The notes under the pieces: model-generated | Told to the model about the DNA's origin: nothing | Seen by the model: the letters and a program-made list of their open reading frames with translations, nothing else | Databases searched by the model: none | Part shown: piece by piece, positions 8,697 to 36,540 of the stretch | Layout of the letters: each line of letters begins with the position of its first letter | Numbering within the stretch: the stretch's first letter is position 1 | Made by a program: the position numbers and the translations under genes | Origin: an uncultured Muribaculaceae bacterium | Lineage (GTDB): Bacteria; Bacteroidota; Bacteroidia; Bacteroidales; Muribaculaceae | Direction of reading: 5' to 3' | Length of the DNA stretch: 64,000 nt | NCBI GenBank assembly: GCA_905233915.1 | Contig: CAJOFM010000003.1 | Location: forward strand, 124,001 to 188,000

Positions 8697-9842
8697 ATGT
8701 CAACAATAACCGACAAAATCCAGAACCATAAATTCATTGTCATAGGTCGTGATGGCATCAATACATTGGGTGTCGTGAGAGCCTTAGGTGAGATTGGCAT
8801 CAGGCCTTATCTTGTTTTATGGACAATACCTGAGCTGTGCAAATATAGCAGATATGTTCAGGAATGTTATCTTTCCCGTACACTTGATAAGGGTTATCAA
8901 TACATACTATCTAAGTTTGGCAACGAGAAGGAGAAGCCATTCATTTTTGCGACCGAAGATGAAACCGTCTCATGTCTAGACCGTCATTTTGATGAGTTGA
9001 AGGATAAATTCTTTTTCTATCATGCAGGTGAGCAGGGACGCATCACTCGGATGATGGAGAAGGGTTATTTGCCCCAACTTGCTGAATCGTGCGGACTGAA
9101 GATTCCAAAAACCGAAGAGGTGAGGAACGGGGAACTGCCCACTACACTATCCTATCCGGTGATTACCAAATCTCCTACTTCGACTTTTTATAACTGGAAA
9201 TCTAACGTACATGTGTGTTATAACGAGGCGGAATTAATGCGGGCCTTCAAGCAGATCAATCAAGAGCGGGTTGTTATCCAAGAATACATTGAAAAGGTTG
9301 ACGAGATTGATTATGAAGGGTTTGTGATAAACGATGGACGGGATTTGTATATGCCGCTAAATAATAGATATTATCGTACAGAGAAGGATAGTTATGGTAA
9401 TTATGCCTATATAGAAAGAAATCCTCGTCCTGAACTAATAGAACCCATCAAGAAGCTGTTCGAAAAGACTGGTTATAACGGCATTTTTGAGATAGAGTTT
9501 TTGGTTGACAAGAACGGACAAACCTATTTTTTAGAAATTAATTTCAGAAGCAGTGCCTGGATGTACGCTTTCCATAAATGTGGCGTTAATCTGCCTTATA
9601 TGTTTGCTCAGTCCTTGTTGCAAGGTCAACTTGATGTCTCGTCAGAGAATATTAGGAAATTACCGTTCTCGTTGATGTTTTCTAGAGCAGACTTCAGAGA
9701 GAGCGTTTTGACAGGTAAAGTGTCTTTTTGGCGGTGGCTGAGGGAATTTTTGAGTACAGATTGCTTATTAGTTTACAACAGGCATGATATGAAGCCGTTA
9801 TGGGGCAAAGTGTACTATTGGCTTCGTCATAGAAGTATGTAA
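8697..9842 (+). CDS. ATP-grasp ligase, carboxylate-amine type
   Basis: Predicted to activate a carboxylate as acyl-phosphate and join it to an amine or similar acceptor. The 381-residue protein has an N-terminal Rossmann-like subdomain (VIGRDGINTLGVVRALG) and a central ATP-grasp region. VVIQEYIEKVDE lies near 200-215, and the metal-binding FEIEFLVD and YFLEINFRSS segments near 260-290. It opens the plus-strand cluster and is 45 bases from a GNAT gene. In glycan clusters such proteins may attach amino acids or other acids to sugars. The substrate cannot be read from sequence. It is distinct from the other two ATP-grasp genes downstream. Confidence 0.85.
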   Translation: MSTITDKIQNHKFIVIGRDGINTLGVVRALGEIGIRPYLVLWTIPELCKYSRYVQECYLSRTLDKGYQYILSKFGNEKEKPFIFATEDETVSCLDRHFDELKDKFFFYHAGEQGRITRMMEKGYLPQLAESCGLKIPKTEEVRNGELPTTLSYPVITKSPTSTFYNWKSNVHVCYNEAELMRAFKQINQERVVIQEYIEKVDEIDYEGFVINDGRDLYMPLNNRYYRTEKDSYGNYAYIERNPRPELIEPIKKLFEKTGYNGIFEIEFLVDKNGQTYFLEINFRSSAWMYAFHKCGVNLPYMFAQSLLQGQLDVSSENIRKLPFSLMFSRADFRESVLTGKVSFWRWLREFLSTDCLLVYNRHDMKPLWGKVYYWLRHRSM

Positions 9843-9887
9843 TTTATGCAGTCTTTTATGTTTTGACACATCAATAAAATAACTAAT

Positions 9888-10649
9888 ATGAACGAAGTAA
9901 TTTACGATTGTAGATGGACAAACGAAGCGGATGATCAATTCGTCAAAGATTGGCAATTTGTTGAAAATCAAGTTTTTGAGAATTTTACTGATGAATTTAT
10001 CAAACGTAAGTATTTTGATAACATCTATGGCCCTTCCATCATGGCTGTTGCATATTTAGATGGTAAGCCTGTAGGTGCAGATGCCTTATGGAGAAACGAT
10101 GTGGATGGTAAATTAGCTTTTTTGTCAGCCGATACATGTGTTTTGCCAGAAGCAAGAGGTCATGGCATTATGAAGGGAATAACTCAGCATGAAATTGCTA
10201 TGGCCCCCCCTGACAGTTACATTTATGGTTGCCCTAATAAGCAATCTTATCATGGGTATAGAAAACTTGGATGGAATGAGGCCAAACTATATGCTGGTTT
10301 TTTTTATTCTCCTAAAAAATATGCCAAAGAGTACCCCGAGAAAATGCCCTATGAATATGCCAAGTGGTGGATAACAGGAACAAATAAATATCATATTAAA
10401 TTTCTGGGTCATTATTATGTAGTCGTGAAATTTGATTCTTTTCCGTTCTGGTACACAGTTTTACTCGCCGAGGTAGATAAAAAAACGGCAGCATTATATC
10501 CTCGATTTAAAGGCTTTTCATTGTTCTTTTACAGGTCACGTAAGCCCATAATCAATTTTGGTGTTTTTAACCAGCCCATCTTTCATATCGCATGGAATGA
10601 TGATCCCCAAAAGTTTCCTTATTGGAAAATTGACGGATTCTGTGAGTGA
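9888..10649 (+). CDS. GNAT-family acyltransferase
   Basis: Acyl-CoA or acyl-ACP dependent N-acyltransferase by fold. The pantetheine-binding loop is LPEARGHGIMKG (86-97), preceded by the beta-strand region AFLSADTCV and followed by a typical C-terminal segment (NKQSYHGYRKLGWNE). The C-terminal 100 residues are aromatic-rich and not typical of small GNATs. Codon use is AT-rich compared with the later cluster genes. It sits between two ATP-grasp/propeller genes at the head of the cluster, so transfer to a sugar amine or ligated amino acid is plausible. Acceptor unknown. Confidence 0.75.
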   Translation: MNEVIYDCRWTNEADDQFVKDWQFVENQVFENFTDEFIKRKYFDNIYGPSIMAVAYLDGKPVGADALWRNDVDGKLAFLSADTCVLPEARGHGIMKGITQHEIAMAPPDSYIYGCPNKQSYHGYRKLGWNEAKLYAGFFYSPKKYAKEYPEKMPYEYAKWWITGTNKYHIKFLGHYYVVVKFDSFPFWYTVLLAEVDKKTAALYPRFKGFSLFFYRSRKPIINFGVFNQPIFHIAWNDDPQKFPYWKIDGFCE

Positions 10650-10776
10650 GAAAGAACATTTGAAATTCTTATGGTTTTTGATAATTGACTCGCACGTTCG
10701 TTATTATTGTTAATGGCATGTAATCAAGCAGTTTGGAGCCAAAGTGAGTTTTTTCCGTCGCAGAATTATATAGATT

Positions 10777-11676
10777 ATGTTGTTCAACGAGTGTTTTGAC
10801 ATATTGGTGTTGGTTTGTGAGGAACCCTTTGAATTGAGGAACAGCAAGATAGTCAAGCGTATCAACAGCAGCCGAAATCCTCTGTCTCTCTCGCCAGTAG
10901 CGATTGATGCTGATCCTTTTTTGGTAGTTAAAGATGACACGTTGTACCTCTTCTATGAGGAGTATCGTTATCGGGACAAAGGTATCATCATGATGACATC
11001 GACCGATGACCTTTTTACATGGTCTGAGCCGAAAGTTGTGCTTGCCGAAGATTTTCACCTGTCTTACCCCTGGGTTTTCCAGCATGATGGGCAATGGTAC
11101 ATGATGCCCGAGACATCAGCAGTTCACGAGATTCGTTTGTATAAAGCAGCCAATAATGAATTTGAACACTTTGATTTTTATAAGGCGATATTGCAACATA
11201 GTGCGGAAGAAATAATGCCGACAGTAGATTTTTGCGATTCGTCGATAGTAAACCGAGATAATAGCTATTATCTTTTTACGACGGTTTATCATGGAGATGA
11301 TAAAGAACAACTCCTTTATTGCTCTGGTAGTTTTGATAGTGATTATGAGATTCATCCTCAGTCCCCTCTGGCTGTAGGGGACAAGTATGGCCGTAACGGA
11401 GGCTCATTGATTGAGCATGAGGGTGTCTTGTATCGTTTTGCTCAGGATTGTGAAGGTGAGTACGGGAAGGATATCCATGTGTTCAGTGTCAAGGAACTGT
11501 CTAGGACCCGTTATCAAGAGTCGCTTATAAGGAACAATCTCCTAACAAGCTGTGGCTTTTCTGCCGGCCATCAATTTAATTTTGTATATTTTAAGGGGAA
11601 TTATATTGTCGCCATAGACCAAAAGCGCAGGTTCCCTCTCCTTGCCTGTAAGGTGAAACGTTTTTTCAAGAAGTGA
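10777..11676 (+). CDS. GINT1 N-terminal-like / GH43-like beta-propeller protein
   Basis: The 299 residues show repeated propeller blades: ADPFLVVKDDTLYLFYEEY, WSEPKVVL, SYPWVFQHDGQWYMMPE and further copies ending FRF/KIH-type strands. This pattern matches the domain at the N-terminus of glucosamine inositolphosphorylceramide transferase 1, a five-bladed GH43-like fold common in bacterial glycan clusters. Whether it hydrolyses, transfers or binds sugar is not established. An in-frame TAG at 10771 fixes the upstream limit. The first 30 residues fit the family poorly, so the start could lie further in or the N-terminus may be degraded. A 127-base gap precedes it. Confidence 0.72.
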   Translation: MLFNECFDILVLVCEEPFELRNSKIVKRINSSRNPLSLSPVAIDADPFLVVKDDTLYLFYEEYRYRDKGIIMMTSTDDLFTWSEPKVVLAEDFHLSYPWVFQHDGQWYMMPETSAVHEIRLYKAANNEFEHFDFYKAILQHSAEEIMPTVDFCDSSIVNRDNSYYLFTTVYHGDDKEQLLYCSGSFDSDYEIHPQSPLAVGDKYGRNGGSLIEHEGVLYRFAQDCEGEYGKDIHVFSVKELSRTRYQESLIRNNLLTSCGFSAGHQFNFVYFKGNYIVAIDQKRRFPLLACKVKRFFKK

Positions 11677-11801
11677 ATGAAATGAGGAATCCTTGAGGTT
11701 TCTTCATGTTACACTATACATGACTAAGGTTTTCTTTCATGTTCAATAACTATTAATGCTTTTTCTCTTACAAATCACCGATTTGTAAAACCAATAAGAA
11801 T

Positions 11802-12980
11802 ATGCAACCTATAGATTTTATTGATTCTTGGTATTATGGTACTGCTTACTATTTCTTCTTCTTGTTTATAAGTTGGGGAACGGTAATTTATTATATAGGC
11901 TCGGGTGGGCAAAAATTGTTGCGCAACAATGGGTCCGCTATGCAAGGGGTTGCACTATTATTGACGATTGCCCTGATCCTTTATTTGGGATTGAGACCCT
12001 ATGGCTCTATTTTTGTGGATTCGAATCAATACCGATGGGCATATCATAATCTTTTTGAAGAATATGTTCCTGTCAACTATAAAACTGAATGGTTTTGGCA
12101 TAACTTCAATTTTTTCTTGAAGCAAATGGGTTTGAATGGTTACGAATTTACTCTTGTAGTTGAGTTCGTCTATTTAGGAGGAATGTTCGTGACCAGTTTG
12201 CTGTTGATGCGCAAGAACTTATGGATGGCGATGTTGTTCTTTTTCACAGCGTTTAGTACTTATTCTTATGGCATTAACGGTATTCGTAATGGGTTTGCTT
12301 GTAGCATAGATCTTGTAGCTATAGCTTTGATAGCAACAGATAGGAAATTCTGGCCAGCAACGTTGTTCTTAATGTTCATGGCACTTGGCGTCCATCGCTC
12401 TACAATGTTGCCGAGTGCTGCGGCTATGGTCTCAGTTTTTGTTATCAAAAGCCCCAAGGTGGCAATCCGATTCTGGTTGCTTTCAATTGCAGTTTCACTG
12501 ATTGGAGGACAATATGTCGAGCAGTTTTTCTCCTCTTTGGGATTTGATGATCGCATGAGTAAATATTCCGAGGGCGCTCAAGATGTAGAGACGATGTCTG
12601 AATTCTCTAAAACTGGTTTCCGATGGGACTTTCTGTTCTATAGCATTTGGCCTGTAATCATGGCATGGTATCTAACCATGTACCGAAAGTTTAATGATAG
12701 AACGTTTAATGTGTTAGCCAATACCTACATCCTCTGTAATGCGTTCTGGATTATGGTAATCCGCGCTTCTTTCTCCAACCGCTTTGCTTATCTGTCATGG
12801 TTCCTTTTCCCCTTGGTTATTGCCTATCCTTTATTCCGCATGAATCTGTGGAAAGACCAGGACCGTAAAACGGCAATTATTTTTTTCCTGTATTCTGGTT
12901 TTGTTTTCTTTATGTTCTTTATCTTCTACTTTGGCACCATGTCTGGTTTCCGTGGCTTTAATTTGTATTGGTGGAGATAA
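11802..12980 (+). CDS. EpsG-family polysaccharide polymerase (Wzy-type)
   Basis: A 392-residue polytopic inner-membrane protein with about ten hydrophobic segments. It has the EpsG-family pattern of an early periplasmic loop (GLRPYGSIFVDSNQYRWAY), a GINGIRNGFA motif and later VHRSTMLPS. Predicted to polymerise lipid-linked repeat units on the periplasmic side. No Wzx flippase is adjacent, although polymerase and flippase normally work together; it may be encoded outside the window. Gaps of 125 and 57 bases flank it. Confidence 0.85.
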   Translation: MQPIDFIDSWYYGTAYYFFFLFISWGTVIYYIGSGGQKLLRNNGSAMQGVALLLTIALILYLGLRPYGSIFVDSNQYRWAYHNLFEEYVPVNYKTEWFWHNFNFFLKQMGLNGYEFTLVVEFVYLGGMFVTSLLLMRKNLWMAMLFFFTAFSTYSYGINGIRNGFACSIDLVAIALIATDRKFWPATLFLMFMALGVHRSTMLPSAAAMVSVFVIKSPKVAIRFWLLSIAVSLIGGQYVEQFFSSLGFDDRMSKYSEGAQDVETMSEFSKTGFRWDFLFYSIWPVIMAWYLTMYRKFNDRTFNVLANTYILCNAFWIMVIRASFSNRFAYLSWFLFPLVIAYPLFRMNLWKDQDRKTAIIFFLYSGFVFFMFFIFYFGTMSGFRGFNLYWWR

Positions 12981-13037
12981 TTAGCGTGAATAACCAGTAG
13001 AATCATATCAAAGAGAATTTGCATTTATACATAAGTT

Positions 13038-13847
13038 ATGGAAAAGATACGGATTAGTGTGATCATGGGAATCTACAATTGTGCTCCGACTTTGGTTGAA
13101 GCTCTTGATTCACTGATGGCTCAGACCTATCAGGGGTTTAAGGTTATCATGTGTGATGACGGTTCCAGTGATGATACTTATCAGGTAGCGCAACAATATG
13201 CTGTAAAGAATCCTGAGCGTTTTGTCCTCGTTAAGAACGAGCACAATATGGGGCTGAATTATACCCTCAACCATTGCCTGGAACATGCTGATACACAGTA
13301 TGTAGCTCGCATGGATGGCGATGACATCTCGATGCCAACCCGTTTTGAGAAAGAAATTAATTTTCTGGATGAACATCCAGAGTATGCGATAGTTTCCACA
13401 CCGATGGTTTATTTTGATGAGCAAGGTGAGTTTGGTCGTGGAAAAGGAGGGTATGAGTCAACAAAGAATAGTTTGATTTATGGCACAGCATTTTGCCATG
13501 CTCCATGCATGGTGCGTGCTGAGGCTTATCAAGCTGTAGGAGGATATACTGTTAATCCTAAGTTGCTGCGATATGAGGATTACAACTTGTGGATGAAGAT
13601 GTTTGCTCTTGGTTATCGTGGCTATATGCTTGACGAGTGTCTTTATGCTATGCGCGATGACCGCACGGCAACCCATCGTCGCACTTTGCAGAGCCGCTTC
13701 AATGGCATTTATGCCCACTATCTGGCCCACAAGACCCTGAGCTTACCCTGGCACAAGTTTGCCATCTTCTCGGTCAACAATATTGCTAAAGGTTTAATGC
13801 CGAATGCGATTTATGAGTTTTTCCACAAACGCAAGTTAAAAAGATGA
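13038..13847 (+). CDS. Glycosyltransferase family 2
   Basis: Inverting GT-A glycosyltransferase of 269 residues. The N-terminal RISVIMGIYNCAPTL and DDGSSDD (40-46) segments bind the nucleotide, and MDGDD (92-96) is the DxD-type metal site. The C-terminus is basic and helical, suggesting association with the inner membrane. It overlaps the next gene by four bases (ATGA), so translation is probably coupled. Donor and acceptor cannot be deduced. Confidence 0.92.
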   Translation: MEKIRISVIMGIYNCAPTLVEALDSLMAQTYQGFKVIMCDDGSSDDTYQVAQQYAVKNPERFVLVKNEHNMGLNYTLNHCLEHADTQYVARMDGDDISMPTRFEKEINFLDEHPEYAIVSTPMVYFDEQGEFGRGKGGYESTKNSLIYGTAFCHAPCMVRAEAYQAVGGYTVNPKLLRYEDYNLWMKMFALGYRGYMLDECLYAMRDDRTATHRRTLQSRFNGIYAHYLAHKTLSLPWHKFAIFSVNNIAKGLMPNAIYEFFHKRKLKR

Positions 13848-14422
13848 AAACCCCATCCTATCGGTACGACTTCTATAGATACGAGGGCCCGCGTATCTGT
13901 CATTGGCACGTTCGGATAGGCAAAATAATCACCTCTCCTGGGTGCGCGTTTATATATATATATCGACATGCCCAAGAAGCAAAAAACGCCTTATCACGTA
14001 TCTTCTGGTATGCTTTGTTGCATGTGACAAAGATAATTACAGGCATCCAGTTTATTCCATATCTGCGTGTCGGAAGAGGGTTGCGCATTTTGCATTTTGG
14101 CGGGATTGTGATAAATACTGATGCTATAATTGGAAAGAACTTTAATATTGCACAGGGTGTACTCATTGGCTTAAATGATGGGGGAAAGAAACCAGGCGCC
14201 CCGATTATTGGCGACAATGTGTATTGTGGTGCTAACTCCATTGTTATAGGCGGAATTAAAATTGGTAACGATGTGTTGATTGCACCCGGCGCCTTCGTTA
14301 ATTTTGATGTGCCAGACAATAGTATTGTACTTGGCAATCCTGGGAAAATTATCCCGCAAGAATCATCACCCACTAGAAAATACATCGTATATCCAGTCGA
14401 GGACTATGAAAAGAATTCTTGA
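13844..14422 (+). CDS. Serine acetyltransferase-like hexapeptide O-acetyltransferase
   Basis: Left-handed beta-helix acyltransferase of 192 residues. Hexapeptide repeats run from about 85 to 175 (GIVINTDAIIGKNFNIAQGV, IIGDNVYCGANSIVIGGIKI), after an alpha-helical N-terminal part resembling serine O-acetyltransferases of capsule loci. Predicted to acetylate a sugar hydroxyl using acetyl-CoA, rather than serine, given its place between two glycosyltransferases. It overlaps the preceding GT2 by 4 bases and the following GT4 by 17 bases. Confidence 0.85.
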   Translation: MKTPSYRYDFYRYEGPRICHWHVRIGKIITSPGCAFIYIYRHAQEAKNALSRIFWYALLHVTKIITGIQFIPYLRVGRGLRILHFGGIVINTDAIIGKNFNIAQGVLIGLNDGGKKPGAPIIGDNVYCGANSIVIGGIKIGNDVLIAPGAFVNFDVPDNSIVLGNPGKIIPQESSPTRKYIVYPVEDYEKNS

Positions 14423-15572
14423 GATAATCAATCTTCCTAATTCTGCTGTGGGTTTCATTGGAGACCAGTTTTCTTATTTCCGTGAGAATGGGGGATATGA
14501 GATGCACCTCATTTGTTCTCCAGGAGCTGGTATTGATCAGTTCTGTAGTGAGCGGCAAGTCAAATACTACCCTGTTAAGATTGAGCGGTCGCCAAGTCCT
14601 TGGCGCGACTTGAAGGCTTTATTCAAGATTTTCAACTACATCCGTCGTAATAAGATTGATGTGGTCATCAGTCATCAAGAGAAATCACGGTTGCTTGGAA
14701 CACTGGCGGCTTGGTTGTTGCGCGTTCCCATGCGAGTGATATATGCCCATGGAGTACTTCTTGACACCATGCGCGGTGCCAAGCGTGCATTCTTCCTTGT
14801 CGAAGGAAAGATGGTCTCACTCATGGCTCATCGGATTGTGTGCGTTAGCCCATCGGTAGCTAAACGCCGCACTGAAATCGGCATGGATAATCCGAGGAAG
14901 CAAGTAGTAATTGGCCATGGTACATGCAACGGCATCGATGTTAAAACCAAGTTTAATCCAGCACTGATGGATGCCGAGGAGCGCAGCCAAATCCGGCAAC
15001 AGTTAGGACTTACCGATGACGTTTTTGTTGTAGGCTTTTGTGGCCGCTTGGTGCGTGACAAGGGCATATCAGAGTTAGCACAAGCAGTTAAGCTGCTGTC
15101 AGAACGTCATCCAGAACGCTCCATAAAACTACTTGTTATAGGAGGTTTTGAAAAACGTGATGCCGTGAACAAAGAAACGGTTGATTTCCTGCAAAACTCT
15201 CCGTTGGTAAAATTCACTGGCCGAGTGCCTTTCAATGATGTTCAGAAGTACTACACTCCCATGAATGTATTTGTATTGCCTAGTTATCGTGAGGGCTTCG
15301 GATTGGCAACGGCCGAGGCCGCTGCAATGCTAGTGCCGGCAGTGGTCTCACGTTCAACAGGTTGCATCGATTCAATTGTGGAAAACGAGACTGGAGTGTA
15401 TGCAGATATTGACCCCAATGATATTGCCGATAAAATTGAACTATTCTTTGACCAAGAGTTTGCGCAGCGATTGGGGCATCAAGCACGTGAACACATTGTG
15501 CAATGCTATGACCACGATGATGTGATGAAAAATACTCTTGACTTTATTAATTTGATATCAAAAAAAGAATAA
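14406..15572 (+). CDS. Glycosyltransferase family 4
   Basis: Retaining GT-B glycosyltransferase of 388 residues. The C-terminal nucleotide-sugar domain has FCGRLVRDKG (211-220), TGRVPFNDV and the EGFGLATAE pattern (296-304) that marks GT4 enzymes. I start it at ATG 14406, where MKRILEII begins the Rossmann fold. The longer frame from 14280 lies wholly inside the preceding acetyltransferase and adds unrelated residues. It ends in a TAATG junction with the next gene, so the stop and start share one base. Confidence 0.93.
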   Translation: MKRILEIINLPNSAVGFIGDQFSYFRENGGYEMHLICSPGAGIDQFCSERQVKYYPVKIERSPSPWRDLKALFKIFNYIRRNKIDVVISHQEKSRLLGTLAAWLLRVPMRVIYAHGVLLDTMRGAKRAFFLVEGKMVSLMAHRIVCVSPSVAKRRTEIGMDNPRKQVVIGHGTCNGIDVKTKFNPALMDAEERSQIRQQLGLTDDVFVVGFCGRLVRDKGISELAQAVKLLSERHPERSIKLLVIGGFEKRDAVNKETVDFLQNSPLVKFTGRVPFNDVQKYYTPMNVFVLPSYREGFGLATAEAAAMLVPAVVSRSTGCIDSIVENETGVYADIDPNDIADKIELFFDQEFAQRLGHQAREHIVQCYDHDDVMKNTLDFINLISKKE

Positions 15573-16171
15573 TGGAAAAGAAGAAACTGAGTTTAACTTA
15601 TCGTTGTTTAAGAGCCATTGGCTTGAATTATTCCGAGGAGGAGTATGGCCAGGTTTCTATTTGGCAAGTGATCAAGCGCGTTTACAAGACTTATCGTGAT
15701 GGCTTCCTGCTCAAGTATGTCATGCATTCTTGGCTGTTATCTCCTATCTTGCCGCGCAAGGTGCGTCCCTGGGTGGCCAAGAAAATTGGTTGTCATGTGG
15801 GCAAAGACATCTTCATCGGAGATTCAGTGAAAATTGATGCCGGACATGCCGATATGATCTATATTGAAGATCATGCTCATATAGCTGGTGGTACCCGTTT
15901 GTTGTGCCATCAACGTGACTTAAGGGATTACAAAGTTGGTGACGATTACGCCAAATTGCCTTATAGGCTTGGAGAAATACACCTCGAAAAAGGTTCACTT
16001 GTAGGCATGGAATCGTTTGTCATGCCTGGTGTGACCATAGGTGAAGGTGCGATAGTAGGAGCCTTCTCTCTTGTGACTCATGATATTCCCGCATGGACCA
16101 TCGCCGTGGGACGGCCGGCTAAAGTCGTGAAACAGATTCCCAGACGAGATATTGAGGAAACACAGGAATGA
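15572..16171 (+). CDS. Hexapeptide-repeat sugar acyltransferase (maltose acetyltransferase-like)
   Basis: A 199-residue left-handed beta-helix protein. After a helical N-terminus, hexapeptide turns begin at KKIGCHVGKDIFIGDSV. An extended loop rich in His and Asp (LLCHQRDLRDYK) holds a likely catalytic histidine, and the final turns are FVMPGVTIGEGAIVGAFSLV with the family ending GRPAKVVKQIP. Predicted O-acetylation of a sugar in the repeat unit. It is the second such enzyme in a row, which points to more than one acetylated position. Translational coupling on both sides (1-base and 4-base overlaps). Confidence 0.87.
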   Translation: MEKKKLSLTYRCLRAIGLNYSEEEYGQVSIWQVIKRVYKTYRDGFLLKYVMHSWLLSPILPRKVRPWVAKKIGCHVGKDIFIGDSVKIDAGHADMIYIEDHAHIAGGTRLLCHQRDLRDYKVGDDYAKLPYRLGEIHLEKGSLVGMESFVMPGVTIGEGAIVGAFSLVTHDIPAWTIAVGRPAKVVKQIPRRDIEETQE

Positions 16172-17043: not shown

Positions 17044-17101
17044 ATGGATTATAATTGGTGTTTCTGTATATCTGATTGTAAATAACGTTTTATTTAGATT
17101 T

Positions 17102-18613: not shown

Positions 18614-18683
18614 TATAAAAGATTGTCTTTCTCAAATTGTGTTTTTAATTGTAGAGTAATAACCATCTTTGGGCTACTATAAA

Positions 18684-26861: not shown

Positions 26862-26873
26862 TGATTGAGGATT

Positions 26874-28598: not shown

Positions 28599-29741
28599 AT
28601 GGCTAACAACAAAATTTTACTTTGTCTCGCCCACATGAGTGGACAGGAAATGAAATACATTCAGGAGGCATTTGATACCAATTGGGTTGTGCCTCTCGGT
28701 CCCAACGTAAATGCTTTTGAGGAAGATCTCGAGCAATTGTGTGGCGAGGACAAGAGAGTAGTTGCTCTCAGTTCGGGTACAGCAGCTATTCATTTAGCAC
28801 TTGTTAATCTCGGTGTTACTCGCGGTGATGAGGTGATCTGCCAGTCAATGACTTTTTCGGCCAGTGCCAATCCCGTAGTATATCAGGGCGCGACGCCGGT
28901 ATTTGTTGATAGCGAGCGCGATTCCTGGAATATCGATCCTAATTTGCTCGAAGAGGCAATCAAGGACCGTATCGCTAAGACTGGAAAGAAGCCCAAAGCC
29001 ATCATTCCTGTGTATCTTTACGGCATGCCTGCCAGGATTGACGATATCATGGAGATCGCGCGGCGTTATGAGATACCTGTCATTGAGGATTCTGCCGAGG
29101 CCTTTGGCTCATGTTATCGTGGCCAATTGTGCGGAACATTTGGAGAATTCGGCATCATGAGTTTCAATGGTAACAAAATGATTACCACAAGTGGTGGCGG
29201 TGCCCTTATTTGCCCCGACGAGGCAGCCAAGAAAAAGACCATGTTTTATGCCACACAGTCACGCGAGCCGATGCCTTACTATCTGCACAAGGAAATCGGA
29301 TACAATTACCGCATGAGCAACATCTGCGCGGGCATTGGCCGTGGACAAATGACCATCCTTGATGAGCACCTGGCACATCACAAGCATTTGTGCGATCGCT
29401 ATGTTGAGCTCTTAGGTGATGTGGATGGTATCACCGTCCACACCAATCCCGACGATCGTTGTGACAGTAATTATTGGCTCAATACAATAATAATCGACCC
29501 TAAGAAGACGGGAACTGACTATGAGACAGTGCGTTTGCATCTGGATGCATGCAATATTGAGTCTCGCCCGTTGTGGAAGCCGATGCACACTCAACCCGTA
29601 TTCAGTGGCGCACCCTCCTATGTTAACGGTGTGAGTGAGGATTTGTTCACAATGGGATTGTGTCTTCCCAGTGGTCCTTGGGTAAGTGATGAAGATGTCG
29701 AGCGGGTTGCCCGTGAGATTATTGCTTGCTGCAAGCATTGA
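28599..29741 (+). CDS. DegT/DnrJ/EryC1/StrS-family sugar aminotransferase
   Basis: PLP-dependent aminotransferase of 380 residues that converts a UDP- or dTDP-keto-sugar to an amino sugar. The PLP lysine is Lys193 in SFNGNKMITTSGGG. SSGTAAIHLAL binds phosphate, and EDSAEAFGS holds the cofactor aspartate. It resembles PglE-type enzymes for UDP-4-keto-6-deoxy sugars. The 4,6-dehydratase that would make its substrate is not in the window. Its amine product is the natural acceptor for the GNAT and PglD domains upstream. Confidence 0.93.
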   Translation: MANNKILLCLAHMSGQEMKYIQEAFDTNWVVPLGPNVNAFEEDLEQLCGEDKRVVALSSGTAAIHLALVNLGVTRGDEVICQSMTFSASANPVVYQGATPVFVDSERDSWNIDPNLLEEAIKDRIAKTGKKPKAIIPVYLYGMPARIDDIMEIARRYEIPVIEDSAEAFGSCYRGQLCGTFGEFGIMSFNGNKMITTSGGGALICPDEAAKKKTMFYATQSREPMPYYLHKEIGYNYRMSNICAGIGRGQMTILDEHLAHHKHLCDRYVELLGDVDGITVHTNPDDRCDSNYWLNTIIIDPKKTGTDYETVRLHLDACNIESRPLWKPMHTQPVFSGAPSYVNGVSEDLFTMGLCLPSGPWVSDEDVERVAREIIACCKH

Positions 29742-29867
29742 AAATGTAAAAAATGAAACTGTTTATCCACGAATAAACCACAGTTAGGGCATCGTATCGA
29801 TTTTTTTATAAAATTTGCCCCTTTGTGAAAAATATTGACGTGGATTCTACGTTATATATTCGAATAC

Positions 29868-30110
29868 ATGAGTATCGATAAGTTCATAGAGTTATTTGCG
29901 GATCTGTTTGATGAGACGGACCCCGATACGATACAAGCCACCACTCGTTTCAAGGAATTGGACGAATGGTCATCTCTTATTGCATTGTCGATTATCGCGA
30001 TGATTGACGAGGAATTCGATGTGGAATTCCGCGGTGATGACATTCGTAACAGCGAAACGGTAGAGGATCTGTTCCATATTGCCGAGTCCAGGGTGGAGGA
30101 AGAACTATAA
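29868..30110 (+). CDS. Acyl carrier protein 3 (WSSL type)
   Basis: An 80-residue ACP, paralogous to ACP 1 with the same DEWSSL core and attachment Ser36, followed by IIAMIDEEFDVEF. I choose ATG 29868; the longer frame from 29835 adds 11 non-ACP residues. A 126-base AT-rich gap after the aminotransferase may contain an internal promoter, although no consensus was clear. It lies 12 bases before KAS III-2, repeating the ACP-KAS III pairing seen upstream. Confidence 0.88.
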   Translation: MSIDKFIELFADLFDETDPDTIQATTRFKELDEWSSLIALSIIAMIDEEFDVEFRGDDIRNSETVEDLFHIAESRVEEEL

Positions 30111-30122
30111 TCATCTGATATT

Positions 30123-31172
30123 ATGGCCAAGATTTCTTTTCAAGGGGTTGGTATAACCGCCCTTTCTGCTTGCGTCCCTCCAGAGGTGTACTACAACAAG
30201 GATTTGGGTTACCTTATCCCGCAGGAAGAAATTGAGAAAACGATTGAGAATATAGGCATCGTTGAGCGGCGCATAGCAGCCCCCGATGTCATGGCCAGCG
30301 ACTTGTGCTTTAAGGCCGCCCAGCGATTAATGCAGGATAATGATATTCAGCCCGAGAGCATTGATGTGCTCTTGTTCATGAGCCAGACGGGCGATTATCG
30401 CATTCCTGCCACATCATGCTTGCTGCAGCACCGGTTGGGGTTACCCAAGGAGACGATGTGCTTTGATATCTCATTGGGTTGCTCGGGTTATCTTTTCGCA
30501 CTGAGTACGGCGTTTGCCTATGCCTCGTTGCCTGGTGTGAATCGTGTGTTGTTGCTTGACGGTGAGACGTTCTCTAAAATCGTTAACCGTCGAGACAAGG
30601 TGGACTGGCCCCTCTATGGTGATGCCGGAACGGCAACCCTTATCGAGAAGGGAGATTTCGGACAATCAACATTCTTGCTCTATACCGATGGCAGTGGCGA
30701 GGACAAACTCAAAATCCACGCCGGCATGCGCAATCCCATCACACCTGAGTCCTGTGTCGAGCGCGAGCAGGAAGAGGGTAACATCCGCTCCGACCTCGAG
30801 GTGTTCATGGACGGCATGGATGTCTTCAATTTCGCTATCAGTAAGGTGCCCAAGAGCATCAAGTTGTTGCTTAGCGAGACAGGTAAAACTATCGACGACG
30901 TGGACTATCTCGTTTTCCATCAGGCCAACCGATTCATGATGGATTTCTTTGTGAAGAAACTCAAGATTTCCCATGACCGCGTTCCCTATTGCATTCACAA
31001 GTACGGTAACACCAGCAGCGCTTCTGTGCCTTTGACTATCGCTAGTGAGTTGAGCGGACAGTTGGATGGCACTCACACTGTTTTGTTGAGCGCGTTTGGT
31101 GCTGGACTGAGCTGGGGCTCTGCAATCATGACAACCAGTGACTGCAACGTTTCACCTGTGATTGAGTATTGA
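30123..31172 (+). CDS. 3-oxoacyl-ACP synthase III family (KAS III-2)
   Basis: Second FabH-type condensing enzyme, 349 residues, with triad Cys120 (LGCSGY), His266 (VFHQANRF) and Asn296 (YGNTSSAS). It aligns along its whole length with KAS III-1 (shared SACVP, MASDL-like, GMRNPITPE and MDGMDVF/NGMDVF stretches) but differs around the acyl pocket, so the two may act in successive condensations or on different acyl groups. The next gene begins two bases after its stop, so the unit continues into the VOC protein. Confidence 0.9.
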   Translation: MAKISFQGVGITALSACVPPEVYYNKDLGYLIPQEEIEKTIENIGIVERRIAAPDVMASDLCFKAAQRLMQDNDIQPESIDVLLFMSQTGDYRIPATSCLLQHRLGLPKETMCFDISLGCSGYLFALSTAFAYASLPGVNRVLLLDGETFSKIVNRRDKVDWPLYGDAGTATLIEKGDFGQSTFLLYTDGSGEDKLKIHAGMRNPITPESCVEREQEEGNIRSDLEVFMDGMDVFNFAISKVPKSIKLLLSETGKTIDDVDYLVFHQANRFMMDFFVKKLKISHDRVPYCIHKYGNTSSASVPLTIASELSGQLDGTHTVLLSAFGAGLSWGSAIMTTSDCNVSPVIEY

Positions 31173-31174
31173 CA

Positions 31175-31582
31175 ATGACCCCGCAACTCCTGTTTCACCA
31201 CATTGGCATCGCTTGCCGTGACATCGAGAAGACCAAGGCCTTCTACTTGGACCTGGGTTACGTCGCCACGCCGACGGTCGATGATCCGCTCCAACACGTG
31301 CGAGTGGCTTTTCTCGACAAGCCTGGTGAACCGCGATTGGAGTTGCTGGAGCCGCTCGATGATCAGTCGCCGGTTTTGCGCACGTTGTCCGCTGTCGGGG
31401 TTTCGCCATATCACATGTGTTACACGGTTCAGGATATAGAATCGGCAGTCGCGTCTTTGCGCGAACGTCGCTTTCTTTTGGTAAACGGCCCCGTGCCAGC
31501 TTGTGCGATGAATAACTGCCGTGTCGCTTTCCTTTTCCACAAGAATACAGGATTAATTGAACTGGTTGAGTCCAATCGTTGA
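31175..31582 (+). CDS. VOC-superfamily protein (glyoxalase / methylmalonyl-CoA epimerase-like)
   Basis: A 135-residue vicinal-oxygen-chelate protein with two beta-alpha-beta-beta-beta modules. HHIGIACRDIEKTKAFY opens module one; SPYHMCYTVQDIESAVASL opens module two, and a terminal glutamate lies in TGLIELVE. The spacing of metal ligands resembles methylmalonyl-CoA epimerase, so epimerisation or isomerisation of a carrier-bound acyl group is possible, though the family is very varied. ATG 31175 is preferred to the TTG at 31169. The stop overlaps the next start by one base (TGATG). Confidence 0.82.
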   Translation: MTPQLLFHHIGIACRDIEKTKAFYLDLGYVATPTVDDPLQHVRVAFLDKPGEPRLELLEPLDDQSPVLRTLSAVGVSPYHMCYTVQDIESAVASLRERRFLLVNGPVPACAMNNCRVAFLFHKNTGLIELVESNR

Positions 31583-32586
31583 TGGATGACATGTGTTTGA
31601 CATATATTGTCCCTGTATATAACACCGAGGCCTTTGTGCTTCGGTGCTTGCAATCAGTGGTTAATCAAGATATTCCCGGGGACGATTACGAAATCATTAT
31701 TGTGGATGACGGCTCAACTGATGGCAGCCGTGACTTGATTGAGTCATTTGCCCGCGAGCACCGGCAGGTGAGAATCCTCACCCAAGAGAATGCAGGTGTT
31801 AGCGCTGCGCGCAATTTGGCCATTGACAATGCCCGTGGCCGTTATATTCAGTTTGTTGACAGTGATGACTTTCTTGAGCACAATGTGATGGGGCTATTGC
31901 TCCAACGTGCCATCGACCTCGATGTTGATGCCTTGATTTTCAATTACAAGCCGGTTAATGTCGAGGGGCAGGTTTACCCTCATTCTCGTGAGGACTTTTC
32001 GCTCTCCTCCCAGGTAATGACGGGTGCGGAGTACCTTGATAGTCATGTTATGACGCCTTATATCTGGCGTTTCCTTATTCGTCGTGACTACCTTAATCAG
32101 GGACAGTGGCGCTTTGATCCTTCATTGCTTGTTTGTGAAGACGGGGCTCTGATTGCTCAGGTCCTGCTTCATGCATCACGCGTGGCTCACGACGAGGCGG
32201 CTCCTTACCGCTATATGCGCCGTGACGATAGCGCTATGCACAATCAGGATGAACAACATCTGCGCCGTCGTCTCTTCAGTCAAGTTGATGCTGCTGCTTC
32301 GATTGACGAGACCATTCGCCAGTATGAGGCTCAGTCAGGCGGGAAAGCACCTGTCAGTGTGCTTGGCCTGAGGAATGTGTATCTCTATTTCTCGATGACC
32401 AAGGCATTGACTACAGGCTTAGTGGACAGTGTGCTGCAACACATCCGTCAATTGGGCTTATACCCCTTCCCGTGTGTTGGACCTGAGTCTAACTACTATG
32501 GCAAAAAGTGGAGAATCATCCATGCCATGATGATGCGTCCTGCCGTGTGGAAGCTCTTGAGCAAAGTTTATCGTTTGATTAAGTAG
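31582..32586 (+). CDS. Glycosyltransferase family 2
   Basis: A 334-residue GT-A enzyme: LTYIVPVYNTEAFVLRCL, IIIVDDGSTDGS, and VDSDD as the metal site near 94-98. The C-terminal region (FLIRRDYL, EDGALIAQVL) holds the likely base. Donor unknown. It sits between the VOC gene and the FkbH-like gene, within the acyl-biosynthesis half of the cluster, so glycosyl transfer and acyl synthesis appear to be expressed together. Confidence 0.92.
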   Translation: MDDMCLTYIVPVYNTEAFVLRCLQSVVNQDIPGDDYEIIIVDDGSTDGSRDLIESFAREHRQVRILTQENAGVSAARNLAIDNARGRYIQFVDSDDFLEHNVMGLLLQRAIDLDVDALIFNYKPVNVEGQVYPHSREDFSLSSQVMTGAEYLDSHVMTPYIWRFLIRRDYLNQGQWRFDPSLLVCEDGALIAQVLLHASRVAHDEAAPYRYMRRDDSAMHNQDEQHLRRRLFSQVDAAASIDETIRQYEAQSGGKAPVSVLGLRNVYLYFSMTKALTTGLVDSVLQHIRQLGLYPFPCVGPESNYYGKKWRIIHAMMMRPAVWKLLSKVYRLIK

Positions 32587-32592: not shown

Positions 32593-34188
32593 ATGATGAC
32601 AACTTTTGTCTTTCGCAATCATACAGTAGAACCCTTCCTTGGTGATGATGCCATGACCTATTCAGGTTATGACGACATCAGCATCGTGCCCCGTGATGTG
32701 GAGCGTTACATTTGGTTCTATCAAGTGCCTGTCAATACCGACAGCACCCAACTTGCCGAAGAATTGGCCTCTTATCGTGGCAAACTCGACTTGGTGCTTG
32801 CTGAAGCCGATGACCATAAGCCGTTCATCGTATTCTCGCTTGTAGATCTCTATCCTGTCAAATTCACGGGCGAGGATGTTGCAGTGGCCGATGCCATCAT
32901 GGAGTTTAACCGCTATGTGGCATCGTTAGCGGCTACACGGCCTAATGTCAAGTGGGTGGATTTCAGTGAATTCACGCGGCAATATGAACTTGATGCATTG
33001 GTCAACTGGAAGTACTACCTCATGTCGCAGACACTGCTTAGCCCCAAGTTGGCCCATGATTTCAAGAACTGGTGGCAACGCATTGAGACCCAATTGGCTT
33101 TGCAGCGCAAGAAGTGCTTGGTTCTCGACATGGACAACACCTTATGGGGTGGGGTGCTCGGCGAGGACGGAGTGGATGGCATCAGGTTAGGCGGCGACTA
33201 TCCCGGCAAGGCATTCTCCTATTGGCAGCGTGCGCTGCTGCAACTGGAGAAAAACGGTGTGATATTGACCGTTTGCAGTAAGAATAATGAGGCCGATGTC
33301 ATCGAAGCATGGCAACACAATCCCAACATGGTTCTCAAGCGTGAGCACTTCAGTGCAGTGCGCATTAACTGGCAAGATAAAGTGACCAACCTGCGTGAGT
33401 TAGCGGCAGAACTCAACATCGGATTGGACAGTATGGTCTTCATCGATGACAATCCCACCGAGCGGGAACTTGTCCGTCAACTCCTGCCACAGGTCGCCGT
33501 CCCCGATTTCCCGGAAAAACCCTATCAGCTGATGCCGTTCTTCAAGCAACTGGTTGAGAACTATTTCCGCATCTATACGGTGACGAGCGAAGACCGAGCG
33601 AAGACCGAACAATACCAGGCCAATGCTTTGCGCAAGGCCGACGAGGCCCGTTTCCCCGATATGGAGAGCTATCTCTATAGCCTTGACATGGAATTGGACA
33701 TCGTTCCTGCCGATGAACATAACCTGCCACGCATTGCCCAGATGACTCAGAAAACCAACCAGTTTAATCTGACGACACACCGATACACCGAGGCCGATGT
33801 TCAGCGGTTTTTAGACAATGGTTGGCGCGTCTATTGCCTTGGAGTCAGGGACCGCTTTGGAGACAGTGGTATCACCGCAACGGTTTTCCTGGAACCGGTG
33901 GACGACATTACCGTTAACGTAGACTCGCTGTTGTTGAGTTGCCGCATCCTGGGTAAAGGTATAGAAGAAGCTTTCTTCAAGACGGTGCTCAATCTGTTGC
34001 GCCTCGACGGCTATCGCAAGCTTGTGGCACAGTATTTGCCCACAGTTAAGAATGGCCAGACGGCTGACTTCTATGACCGCATGGGTTTGACTTGCGTGTC
34101 AACTGACAGTGATGGTTCCAAACATTATGAAATGGAACTGAGGGAAGTTTTTGAAATAAAGAATTACTATAACATAAGAGTATTATGA
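32593..34188 (+). CDS. FkbH-like HAD-IIIC protein
   Basis: A 531-residue protein with an N-terminal SGNH-like or linker part and a HAD domain starting at CLVLDMDNTLWGGVLGEDG (DMDNT 179-183). VCSKNNEADV and FIDDNPTERE follow as later HAD motifs, and the C-terminal GNAT-like domain includes DRFGDSG and LLLSCRILGKGIEEAF. Characterised FkbH enzymes dephosphorylate 1,3-bisphosphoglycerate and load the glyceryl group onto an ACP. The next gene is an ACP overlapping by four bases, which supports that role here. The product could be used as a glyceryl decoration or as part of an acyl unit. Confidence 0.9.
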   Translation: MMTTFVFRNHTVEPFLGDDAMTYSGYDDISIVPRDVERYIWFYQVPVNTDSTQLAEELASYRGKLDLVLAEADDHKPFIVFSLVDLYPVKFTGEDVAVADAIMEFNRYVASLAATRPNVKWVDFSEFTRQYELDALVNWKYYLMSQTLLSPKLAHDFKNWWQRIETQLALQRKKCLVLDMDNTLWGGVLGEDGVDGIRLGGDYPGKAFSYWQRALLQLEKNGVILTVCSKNNEADVIEAWQHNPNMVLKREHFSAVRINWQDKVTNLRELAAELNIGLDSMVFIDDNPTERELVRQLLPQVAVPDFPEKPYQLMPFFKQLVENYFRIYTVTSEDRAKTEQYQANALRKADEARFPDMESYLYSLDMELDIVPADEHNLPRIAQMTQKTNQFNLTTHRYTEADVQRFLDNGWRVYCLGVRDRFGDSGITATVFLEPVDDITVNVDSLLLSCRILGKGIEEAFFKTVLNLLRLDGYRKLVAQYLPTVKNGQTADFYDRMGLTCVSTDSDGSKHYEMELREVFEIKNYYNIRVL

Positions 34189-34409
34189 ACATGGAAGAAA
34201 GGGTTTTAGAGATAATGAGAGAAGTCTTTGAAATGGAGGCTGTTACTACCGACGTTTCTCAGAAAAACTGTGCACGTTGGGACTCGTTGCACCACCTCTC
34301 TTTAGCCTCTGAATTGGAGGAAGCTTTTGATATCGATCTCGAGCCTGAGGAAATTGCCGAGATGACCGATTTCTCGCGGGTTATCGATATGCTGAAGAGC
34401 AAGATCTGA
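34185..34409 (+). CDS. Acyl carrier protein 4, FkbH partner
   Basis: A 74-residue ACP with canonical RWDSLHHLSL; the pantetheine-bearing residue is Ser34. Acidic helix II (ELEEAFDIDLEPEEI) and helix III follow. The four-base overlap with the FkbH-like gene and the genetic pairing known from glyceryl-ACP systems make it the likely acceptor of a glyceryl group. It is not closely similar to ACP 1 and ACP 3. Confidence 0.9.
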   Translation: MNMEERVLEIMREVFEMEAVTTDVSQKNCARWDSLHHLSLASELEEAFDIDLEPEEIAEMTDFSRVIDMLKSKI

Positions 34410-34437: not shown

Positions 34438-35466
34438 ATGATGGCACAGCAGCGCATCGCCTACATCGACTTCATGAAGTGCCTGTGCATCATGCTCATT
34501 GTGATGTACCACATCGACCATGAGTTTTTCAATTATTTTGCACCTAATCTGAACAATGCCCTGCAGGCTTTCCGCCTGCCCATGTATTATTTCCTCTCGG
34601 GTTATTTCTTTAAGCTGTATAACGGCTTTGCCGATTTCACGCGGCGCAAGGTGAACAATATCCTTGTGCCGTTTGTTTTTTTTGTTGTTCTTGCCTATGG
34701 TGTGCGTTGTGTCGAGGCTGGATTGCGGCTTAGTATCGGCGCGGAACCCATTGATGTCTCTCCTGTGCGTCTCGTGGAGCCCTTTTACATGCGCTCTTGG
34801 GAGATGACTGGCCCATTGTGGTTCTTGCTCAGCCTGTTTTGGGTTAATGTCATCTTTTATGCTTTGCAACGTTTCATCAAGCCTGTATGGGGAATGGTGG
34901 TGGCAACGGTTGTGATATCTGTTTTGGGCTATTGGTTAATGGTTAACAAGGTCATGTTGCCACTCATGCTCGATACATCGCTTGTCGCCATGCCCTATTT
35001 TATCCTAGGCTGGGCTATGAAGAAGGCCAAGCCGATACCCTCCACCCCCGTGTGGAACTTATGCCGCGTTTTGCTGCTATGTGTCGTTGCCGTGCCCATC
35101 TACCTCATGAGTGAGTTCATGAATCTCCACTTCCAGGTCTTGCCTAGCTATTGGAAAGTTTACGTCTTGCCTTGCTGTGCCATCTTGACGTTGTTTTTGG
35201 TGTGCATGGCTCTGCCGCGCATCCCCGTGTTGTGCCATTACGGACGTTACTCTCTCATTATTTTGGGCACGCATCCATTGCTTTTCCTGCCCATCCGTTC
35301 GGTGTGCATCTTGCGCTTTGGGATGGAACCAGGCATCGGGCTGACATTACTTGTCTTTATCTTGACGATGCTGCTCGAGTGGCCGTTGATTTGGTTGCTT
35401 AAGACCTATGCGCCTCGTTTTACTGCTCAGCAACCCTTTTTTAAGGATGGTTGGAAACTGAGATAA
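34438..35466 (+). CDS. Membrane acyltransferase family 3
   Basis: An integral membrane O-acyltransferase of 342 residues with about ten hydrophobic segments. The N-terminal family motif RIAYIDFMKCLCIMLIVMYH carries the conserved histidine, and RLPMYYFLSGYFF is typical. It would transfer an acetyl or other acyl group across the inner membrane onto a growing glycan. It follows the FkbH-ACP pair by 28 bases, so use of an ACP-bound acyl donor is possible but unproven. It starts at ATG 34438, with a second in-frame ATG directly after. Confidence 0.87.
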   Translation: MMAQQRIAYIDFMKCLCIMLIVMYHIDHEFFNYFAPNLNNALQAFRLPMYYFLSGYFFKLYNGFADFTRRKVNNILVPFVFFVVLAYGVRCVEAGLRLSIGAEPIDVSPVRLVEPFYMRSWEMTGPLWFLLSLFWVNVIFYALQRFIKPVWGMVVATVVISVLGYWLMVNKVMLPLMLDTSLVAMPYFILGWAMKKAKPIPSTPVWNLCRVLLLCVVAVPIYLMSEFMNLHFQVLPSYWKVYVLPCCAILTLFLVCMALPRIPVLCHYGRYSLIILGTHPLLFLPIRSVCILRFGMEPGIGLTLLVFILTMLLEWPLIWLLKTYAPRFTAQQPFFKDGWKLR

Positions 35467-35484
35467 TAACATTTTTGATTTCTG

Positions 35485-36540
35485 ATGAAATACCTTTTTC
35501 GTCTCATCTCTATAATTCTTGCGTTTGCTTTGCTCCTGGCGGCCTATGGCGGCAGGGTTGATCCCACCATTTGGACCTTGCCCTCGATGGCTACATTGGC
35601 TTTGCCGGTAGTGGCGATTGTTGTACTGGCTTGGTTACTGCTGCTGGTTCTTTTCCGTCAATGGAGAGCGGCTGTTATCATTGTGGGCGCTTTGTTCTTG
35701 GCATGGCCCACCTTGCGATTGATAACGCCGGTCAACCTTTTTTCTCCCAAAGCCGATTCTGATAAAACCCAACTCAAGGTGTTGACAATGAATGTGACAG
35801 AGTTCAACTGGTTTGATGATACCAAGGAACCCAGTAAGAACATGCGTTACATTCTTGACGAGGATGCCGACATCGTGGTGATTCAAGAGGGATTGGTTTA
35901 TTTCTCCTATGAGCACCAGAAACGTATCAAACCCATGTTGAAGGAGTTATATAAGAAGTATCCCTATCGCAAAAAGCATTGCTTTGACGTTGGTATCTTG
36001 TCTAAATACCCATTCACCGAAGTGGAATCTCCTACGATTAATTCTGACTCACTTTCATACTTCATCAAAGCCTGGGATGTGGAAGCTCCTGGCGGAGACA
36101 TCAGGGTGGTGAGCATGCACCTGAGCTCGTTAAGGCTGAATAAAGACGATGCCTCGGTCATCGAGTCAATTAGAATCCCTTCGGGACGCAAGGGGCGCAT
36201 CAAGTCTGTCCACCGCAAGTTGGATGAGGGTTTTAAAAAGCATGTCCATCAGGCAAGGGCTATGCGCAAGTTGATTGATGAAACCCCGGGTGATATATTG
36301 GTTATGGGCGACATGAATGACACGCCAGGCTCTTTTGCCTATCGCACAGTGTGTGGCGATGATCTGCATGATGCCTGGGCCGATGTGGGGTTTGGCCCCA
36401 TTTATACCTTCCATGAGCATCACATGTATGTCAAGATAGATCATATCTTCTACCGTGGTGACCTGCGTGTGCTCTCTTCCCGCTGTGATAAGGCTGGGGA
36501 GAGTGATCATTATCCGTTGGTTGCTGTTTTCGAGCGGTAG
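35485..36540 (+). CDS. Endonuclease/exonuclease/phosphatase family membrane protein
   Basis: A 351-residue protein with two or three N-terminal hydrophobic segments (about 1-75) and a C-terminal EEP domain exposed outside the cytoplasmic core. Catalytic features are KVLTMNVTEFN, VVIQEG, DVGILSKYP, MHLSSLR, MGDMNDTPG and the final SDHYPL. Such membrane-anchored EEP proteins are common in Bacteroidales and may be phosphodiesterases rather than nucleases. It is 18 bases from the acyltransferase, so probably co-transcribed, but it may not belong to glycan synthesis. Confidence 0.88.
   Translation: MKYLFRLISIILAFALLLAAYGGRVDPTIWTLPSMATLALPVVAIVVLAWLLLLVLFRQWRAAVIIVGALFLAWPTLRLITPVNLFSPKADSDKTQLKVLTMNVTEFNWFDDTKEPSKNMRYILDEDADIVVIQEGLVYFSYEHQKRIKPMLKELYKKYPYRKKHCFDVGILSKYPFTEVESPTINSDSLSYFIKAWDVEAPGGDIRVVSMHLSSLRLNKDDASVIESIRIPSGRKGRIKSVHRKLDEGFKKHVHQARAMRKLIDETPGDILVMGDMNDTPGSFAYRTVCGDDLHDAWADVGFGPIYTFHEHHMYVKIDHIFYRGDLRVLSSRCDKAGESDHYPLVAVFER

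Follow-up and report, generated by a model that had tools for sequence, protein, structure and literature searches.

An FkbH-linked acyl cassette, possibly primed by glycerate, in a Bacteroidales surface-glycan locus

Acyl genes inside the surface-glycan locus

We analyzed a 64,000-nucleotide stretch of DNA (the window) from contig 3 of the 2.8-Mb genome of an uncultured Muribaculaceae bacterium (G000), and characterized a cassette of acyl-chain genes that lies in its surface-glycan locus. Profile searches with Pfam and NCBIfam placed all surface-glycan and acyl genes on the forward strand between positions 8697 and 36540, in agreement with a first-pass annotation made from the sequence alone, which had listed both sets of genes on one strand. 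From 8697 to 39577, adjacent genes are separated by at most 127 nt or overlap slightly, all on one strand; a 143-nt overlap between 13844-14422 and 14280-15572 is a product of taking the first start codon. The cassette and the sugar genes next to it are as follows.

18669..19325, + strand: initiating sugar-phosphate transferase, PglC type (PF02397, 195.9 bits)
21295..23001, + strand: fusion of an ATP-grasp with a PglD acyltransferase domain (residues 353-567), predicted to carry out the N-acyl transfer
23011..23757, + strand: short-chain dehydrogenase/reductase (SDR), predicted 3-oxoacyl-acyl carrier protein (ACP) reductase
23859..24095, + strand: ACP1 (below the Pfam cut-off, motif by eye)
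24098..24337, + strand: ACP2, paired with the AMP ligase
24330..25796, + strand: AMP-forming acyl ligase (PF00501, 233 bits)
25800..26861, + strand: ketoacyl-ACP synthase III (KAS III) A, KASA (profile match and triad alignment)
26865..27974, + strand: sugar-transfer-associated ATP-grasp (PF14397)
28002..28589, + strand: metallo-beta-lactamase-fold hydrolase (MBL); a thioesterase role is a guess
28599..29741, + strand: DegT/LegC-type aminotransferase (PF01041, 313 bits), predicted to install a 4-amino group
29835..30110, + strand: ACP3 (PF00550); the true start is probably an internal ATG a few codons downstream
30123..31172, + strand: KAS III B, KASB, the FkbH-linked KAS
31169..31582, + strand: vicinal oxygen chelate (VOC) enzyme, relative of methylmalonyl-CoA epimerase and glyoxalase I
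31579..32586, + strand: family 2 glycosyltransferase (GT2), between VOC and FkbH
32593..34188, + strand: FkbH (TIGR01686), predicted glyceryl transferase/phosphatase
34185..34409, + strand: ACP4, overlapping FkbH, predicted glyceryl carrier
34438..35466, + strand: membrane acyltransferase (PF01757)

KASA and KASB both keep the Cys/His/Asn triad when aligned to E. coli FabH (C112/H244/N274), and the third KAS III of the genome is its own FabH, encoded on another contig. All four ACP-like genes have, by eye, a serine at the expected motif position. ACP1 (19.9 bits) and ACP4 (18.8 bits) fall just below the Pfam ACP cut-off of 20.8 bits, and ACP4 is likewise below the cut-off of the NCBIfam ACP model (E=9.3e-7). 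FkbH passes TIGR01686 with 284.7 bits against a cut-off of 146.65, and the genome has no other FkbH. The LegC-type aminotransferase (361 of 420 bits, TIGR04181) and the PglD domain (156.4 of 160.8 bits, NCBIfam) are below their cut-offs but are good full-length matches, and the fusion 21295-23001 carries the only near-full-length PglD match of the genome. For the ATP-grasp 26865-27974, a sequence search gave no PDB relative.

Linkage of KASB to FkbH and of KASA to the acyl ligase

FkbH, the partner of KASB, is the most distinctive part of the cluster; the first-pass annotation had named it but assigned it no function. We compared 200 distinct KAS III proteins, identical sequences being counted once, from 161 loci that include the window. 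FkbH and ACP4 were found within 5 kb in 28 of the 28 KAS III that are more than 50.5% identical to KASB, of which 27 are at least 54% identical and L211 is just under 54%; a VOC gene is present in 25 of these 28 loci. Of the remaining 172 KAS III, three belong to these same operons as their second KAS, and one, in L163 (a distant Clostridiales Family XIII record with PglC-PglD-KAS-FkbH), lies 13 nt from an FkbH of its own. On a quick-type tree without a mixture model, in which sequences at least 88% identical were merged (200 to 183) and 17 short-flank sequences were treated as unknown and excluded from the label counts, the FkbH label (24 linked, 142 not) needed 2 changes, compared with at least 20 (mean 23) in 100 shuffles. 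For the ligase label, with 16 sequences linked and 150 not, 4 changes were needed, compared with at least 12 (mean 15.5) in shuffles. In 40 whole genomes, FkbH was located no more than about 2 kb from the KAS in 11/11 with KASB at 53.5% identity or higher and in 0/29 others, 4 of which have an FkbH on another contig; this was a partly fresh test, since most of the 40 were already in the tree and 11 of the 29 were new. Beyond these, a phylum-wide search of 395 genomes found KASB-like proteins in 11 other genomes at 45-49% identity and none higher, and a plasmid search with KASB returned 119 records, all below 60% identity.

KASA is tightly linked in the same manner to the AMP ligase and ACP2: for every KAS at least 60% identical to it, the ligase lies no more than 200 nt away (20/20) and ACP2 within 5 kb (20/20). 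Three more genomes of the same genus (L214, L215, and L216) keep the rest of the cassette but have no ACP1-ACP2-ligase-KASA-ATP-grasp between SDR and MBL; this set is therefore gained or lost as a module. Outside the genus, the arm takes the form PglD-ACP1-KAS-SDR-ACP2-ligase-KASA (L048, L050, and L143), with a similar arrangement lacking the PglD match in L168. The FkbH arm also occurs alone, as nine genes with a single KAS in the order PglC-PglD-ACP-SDR-KASB-VOC-FkbH-ACP4-LegC (L210 and L220), and in L111 the nine genes plus a GT2 are found in a different order. L190 and L211, each with a single KAS, and L067, with two, have FkbH cassettes that lack VOC. In L211, PglD and ACP are separated by an extra gene of the acyl/malonyl transacylase type (PF00698, E=2e-33), which would be expected if malonyl-ACP were the extender.

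To place the window among its closest relatives, we searched 297 genomes of the family, including 39 other genomes of the same genus, with KASA as the query. In the genus, 27/39 genomes had some match at the threshold and 12/39 had none. KASA orthologues with 85-89% identity were found in 14/39, and the block 23011-34409 is syntenic in these 14, spread over two contigs in one genome. Their order is SDR-ACP1-ACP2-ligase-KASA-ATP-grasp-MBL-LegC-PglD-ACP3-KASB-VOC-GT2-FkbH-ACP4. The GT2 31579..32586 is found in all 14, MBL is absent from one (L046), and the membrane acyltransferase after ACP4 is absent from one (L043). SDR is 77-85% identical across the same-genus loci and most of them have a PglC-type transferase with 63-70% identity, while the sugar genes upstream of the cassette vary from genome to genome. 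In a selection test of 15 genes between the window and 10 of the 14 relatives, the per-gene median proportion of synonymous differences (pS) was 0.66-0.86, near saturation, and the mean nonsynonymous divergence (dN) was 0.07-0.33. The block is under purifying selection; with dN far below the near-saturated pS and with the order kept, the grouping of the genes is no accident. The cassette is real and conserved, and it seems functional. The first-pass annotation had tied a carrier-bound acyl cassette to a surface-glycan locus, and the synteny beside PglD- and LegC-type sugar genes bears this out; it had named a free-standing lipid or polyketide locus in related genomes as evidence to the contrary, and in the relatives sugar genes are nearby as well.

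The gene upstream of SDR encodes a C-terminal PglD domain in 18/18 same-genus loci covering that stretch. The part in front of this constant domain is exchangeable. The window, L034, and L045 have an ATP-grasp there, 13 loci have a second PglD-like domain, and L035 and L036 have some 370 residues that could be assigned to no family; examples of such varied proteins include L037:16315-17580, L039:2377-3621, and L214:12099-13373. Pfam found two PglD_N stretches per protein in the three tandem proteins tested. The idea that two PglD enzymes serve two acyl chains was weakened, as the number of PglD domains does not track the number of KAS III in the same-genus relatives.

Variable and flanking genes

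The remaining features of the locus are listed below.

8697..18613, + strand: variable sugar region with an ATP-grasp, a GNAT, a GINT1_N-domain protein, an EpsG-type polymerase, a GT2, two hexapeptide transferases, a family 4 glycosyltransferase, a deacetylase (DUF3473), and a 503-aa open reading frame (Pfam)
19358..21275, + strand: insert with MaoC (19358-19756), GNAT2 (19773-20357), and a pyridoxal-phosphate (PLP) enzyme
20364-21275, + strand: the PLP enzyme, D-cysteine desulfhydrase/ACC deaminase family
35485-36540, + strand: endonuclease/exonuclease/phosphatase-type gene (EEP)

When best blastp hits (E<=1e-5) were compared across the 161 loci, some of which end short of the insert stretch, MaoC, the PLP enzyme (PALP), GNAT1, and GINT1 each had one match, the window's own gene, and GNAT2 was matched in 3. 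Neither MaoC nor the PLP enzyme belongs to the conserved block. The first-pass annotation had included MaoC in the pathway; it stands apart from the remaining acyl genes, and given that its sole match is the window's own gene, we rejected it as a member. Weak MaoC matches (29-35%) occur near unrelated FkbH genes. FkbH genes 32-39% identical to that of the window, with MaoC- or VOC-like matches nearby and no KAS III, were seen in L260, L262, L263, L266, L270, L272, L273, and L274.

The GINT1_N-domain protein (10777-11676, + strand, E=5.8e-40) was matched solely in the window among the 161 loci. The 503-aa open reading frame 17102-18613 matched no Pfam or NCBIfam family; we dropped it as a candidate Wzx flippase on account of this and of an asparagine-synthase-like SRGYDATTCA stretch seen by eye. 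Its single-sequence AlphaFold model had a mean predicted local distance difference test (pLDDT) score of 30 and was unusable. PLP enzymes adjoin two of the ATP-grasp-PglD fusions: one D-cysteine desulfhydrase-like (window, 20364-21275) and one ornithine/arginine decarboxylase-like (L045:18002-19282). A PLP enzyme with an ATP-grasp-PglD protein would fit an N-aminoacyl sugar, which is only a lead. In Prevotella intermedia, the route to an N-alanyl linking sugar is described as unknown in the accessible text of one report (PMC11969387). The genome has 8 weak matches to the type IX secretion system tail, 7 of them over the cut-off.

At the right end, EEP, U1, and GHL10 are the three genes that trail the cassette in same-genus loci, and EEP is probably the flank of the locus. 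The left flank (1387-8387, - strand) holds a Wzc-like protein, a myo-inositol-1-phosphate synthase (MIPS), a nucleotidyltransferase, a HAD hydrolase, and a PdxA-like gene; MIPS together with the nucleotidyltransferase hints at an inositol or polyol phosphate in activated form. As in the window, this opposite-strand flank was reached in 3 of 12 upstream stretches (L054-L065), with 5/5 genes in L058 and L061 and 3/5 in L063, where the stretch ends. In metagenome-assembled genomes of Lentimicrobiaceae and Bacteroidetes (L125 and L126), a PdxA-like gene that shares 45-48% identity with window 7182-8387 comes after ACP-KAS III-SDR.

Proposed pathway, precedents, and alternatives

The general idea of such a cassette is already known. 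In the wfpC-wfpG genes for the O-polysaccharide of F. psychrophilum, two ketoacyl-ACP synthases, a dedicated ACP, a reductase, a PglD-type acyltransferase, and a PglC homologue are found as they are here, and the acyl group, 3,5-dihydroxyhexanoyl, is on the 4-amino group of Qui2NAc4N; unlike the window, that set comes without mention of FkbH, an AMP ligase, VOC, or extra ACPs in the available part of the report (PMC6519341). The P. syringae viosamine island (vioA-vioM-vioT-vioS-vioB-vioR-acp) likewise combines a KAS III, an ACP, a reductase, VioB, and an aminotransferase to yield an N-hydroxyacyl 4-amino sugar, which a vioR mutant loses, but, according to the portion at hand, it has a single KAS, makes 3-hydroxybutyryl for a flagellin glycan, and includes no FkbH among its seven genes (PMC3927599). 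The window has, in keeping with both, intact KAS III triads with a dedicated ACP, an SDR, and a PglD-type acyltransferase in one operon, and an aminotransferase and a PglC-type transferase in the locus. Flagellin glycosylation islands of Aeromonas and enterobacteria share an ACP, a 3-oxoacyl reductase, and an AMP ligase with it; they differ in having LuxE/LuxC, and the accessible passages do not mention FkbH or KAS III (PMC7874193, PMC4875605).

FkbH brings in two further comparisons. In the tetronate glycerate operon mad7/mad8/mad16, an FkbH-like enzyme, of a type credited with charging an ACP with glycerate from 1,3-bisphosphoglycerate, works with a stand-alone ACP and a FabH-like KAS that uses the glyceryl-ACP, as far as the available text describes (PMC7489565). 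The window has FkbH, ACP, and a FabH-like enzyme adjoining one another, a likeness of gene set; the tetronate operon serves a polyketide antibiotic, whereas the window has SDR, PglD, and sugar genes instead. In C. jejuni, cj1302 (fkbH), discussed with the flagellar glycan locus, cj1303 (FabH2), and cj1304 (acpP3) have consecutive tags, a likeness by description, and in the parts seen of these reports a dimethylglyceryl change is tied to Cj1295 only (PMC7099621, PMC3229698, PMC4435418). We found no publication joining FkbH to sugar N-acylation in a literature search without most subscription journals, and none combining FkbH, acyl carrier protein, and O-antigen; among the papers listed, none describes the set of the window by title or start of abstract. 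The claim of the first-pass annotation that no described system has this exact set thus holds for the set, but not for its logic, which is known from F. psychrophilum and P. syringae; what looks new is the starter.

Our best explanation as a whole, which we favor slightly, is a modular acyl cassette in a surface-polysaccharide locus, primed by glycerate. That it supplies an acyl group (R-group) to a glycan is very probable; that KASB takes a glyceryl starter is probable, and the exact product is tentative. As predicted from sequence, FkbH would load glycerate from 1,3-bisphosphoglycerate onto ACP4, and KASB would condense glyceryl-ACP4 with malonyl on ACP3 (or ACP1) to give 4,5-dihydroxy-3-oxopentanoyl-ACP. 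VOC may epimerise or isomerise the alpha-hydroxyketone of this 3-oxo-4-hydroxy intermediate (enediol-type chemistry), and SDR would reduce it to 3,4,5-trihydroxypentanoyl-ACP. The LegC-type aminotransferase would put a 4-amino group on a UDP-2-acetamido-2,6-dideoxy sugar, the PglD domain, the C-terminal part of 21295-23001, would move the acyl chain to that group, and the PglC-like enzyme would start the lipid-linked unit with the acylated sugar. The simplest product would be 3,4,5-trihydroxypentanoyl, because a single-KAS cassette contains just one each of KAS, reductase, and PglD, together with FkbH-ACP4. The second arm (ACP1, ACP2, ligase, KASA, and ATP-grasp), inserted between SDR and MBL, may lengthen the first chain or make a second acyl group, and MBL could act as a thioesterase.

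A Treponema denticola flagellin glycan is reported to carry a trihydroxyhexanoyl group; the term is absent from the papers that a literature search listed, and we do not use it as evidence.

Several observations weigh against this pathway. The 28/28 linked loci are mostly kin and not 28 independent events, the tree supporting about two. FkbH is not specific to the cassette: 29 matches were found in 28/393 genomes of the order with KASB adjoining in 3 genomes, and none of 16 other FkbH regions examined contained a KAS III. The FkbH genes with MaoC- or VOC-like matches nearby and no KAS III are apparently different FkbH systems, and FkbH alone was rejected as a cassette marker since most lack an adjoining KASB. 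VOC missed the cut-off of the methylmalonyl-CoA epimerase equivalog TIGR03081 (66.2 bits against 114.95) and is therefore classed only as a relative of the epimerase. The FabH residues W32/R36, which we take to contact coenzyme A, are absent from KASA and KASB and also from FkbH-less relatives; we dropped their loss as proof of an ACP-borne starter for this reason. A stand-alone PglD between LegC and ACP3 is present in the 14 KASA-bearing relatives and not in the window or L214. The cluster contains no 4,6-dehydratase and no flippase. A UDP-GlcNAc 4,6-dehydratase-type gene (PF02719), whose presence in the genome speaks for the pathway, is on contig C6; of 5 PF01943 matches in the genome, 3 exceed the cut-off and none lies in the window.

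We weighed other explanations. Both KAS III could start on acetyl or 3-hydroxyacyl units, with a mono- or dihydroxy C4-C6 amide as the outcome, as predicted from the solved structure for two KAS, an ACP, a reductase, and PglD making 3,5-dihydroxyhexanoyl in F. psychrophilum, in the part of the report available (PMC6519341), while FkbH and ACP4 would separately give glyceryl directly to the glycan; a dimethylglyceryl group is described on pseudaminic acid in C. jejuni, in the accessible text (PMC3068675, PMC7099621). However, FkbH, ACP4, KASB, and SDR stay together in single-KAS cassettes (L210, L220, L111, L190, and L211), and FkbH is tracked by KASB, not by KAS III generally. Direct transfer of glycerate would require neither; we regard this conventional scheme as unlikely. 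The two KAS III rounds that the first-pass annotation proposed for a C4-C6 hydroxyacyl chain could still operate, and the single-KAS FkbH cassettes point to a glycerate starter for KASB. Of the GNAT and PglD domains that it suggested for the transfer, PglD is the likely transferase. Overall, its interpretation is partly supported.

FkbH, ACP, and a FabH-like enzyme are also the tetronate set, in the available text (PMC7489565), and KASB might join glyceryl-ACP4 to a beta-ketoacyl-ACP and close a tetronate ring, so that the product bears the tetronate or is released. SDR and PglD would then have nothing to do, single-KAS cassettes offer no alternative local supply of beta-ketoacyl-ACP, and the transacylase-type gene of L211 fits malonyl loading; we consider it very unlikely. 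KAS III, ACP, SDR, and AMP ligase are general families, and the acyl genes might make a lipid or small molecule unrelated to the glycan, with which they would merely share a locus. A PglD-, LegC- or PglC-type match nevertheless lies within 5 kb in 26/27 loci with KASB at 54% or higher, the exception, L189, being a 7-kb contig; among those loci, L190 shows weak matches (27-28%) and L068 a PglD match alone in range. This explanation seems very unlikely as well.

We return to glycerate priming and propose, tentatively, a glycolysis-primed sugar N-acylation. Glyceryl-ACP from 1,3-bisphosphoglycerate would prime a dedicated KAS III clade, and 3,4,5-trihydroxypentanoyl amides, with longer or second chains where the ligase-KASA arm is present, would be formed on 4-amino sugars of Bacteroidales surface glycans. 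VOC would edit the sugar-like chain before reduction, and the nine-gene core would be the unit common to genera that takes further acyl modules. If this is right, acyl groups of surface sugars can derive from a glycolytic intermediate, beyond acetyl or butyryl units, and a polyhydroxylated amide of exact mass is predicted on the glycans of the host group. The nine-gene core would represent a compact pathway, and the KASB clade together with FkbH would be a marker for such glycans in metagenomes. It would also offer a candidate reason why FkbH and FabH2 adjoin each other in the flagellin locus of Campylobacter.

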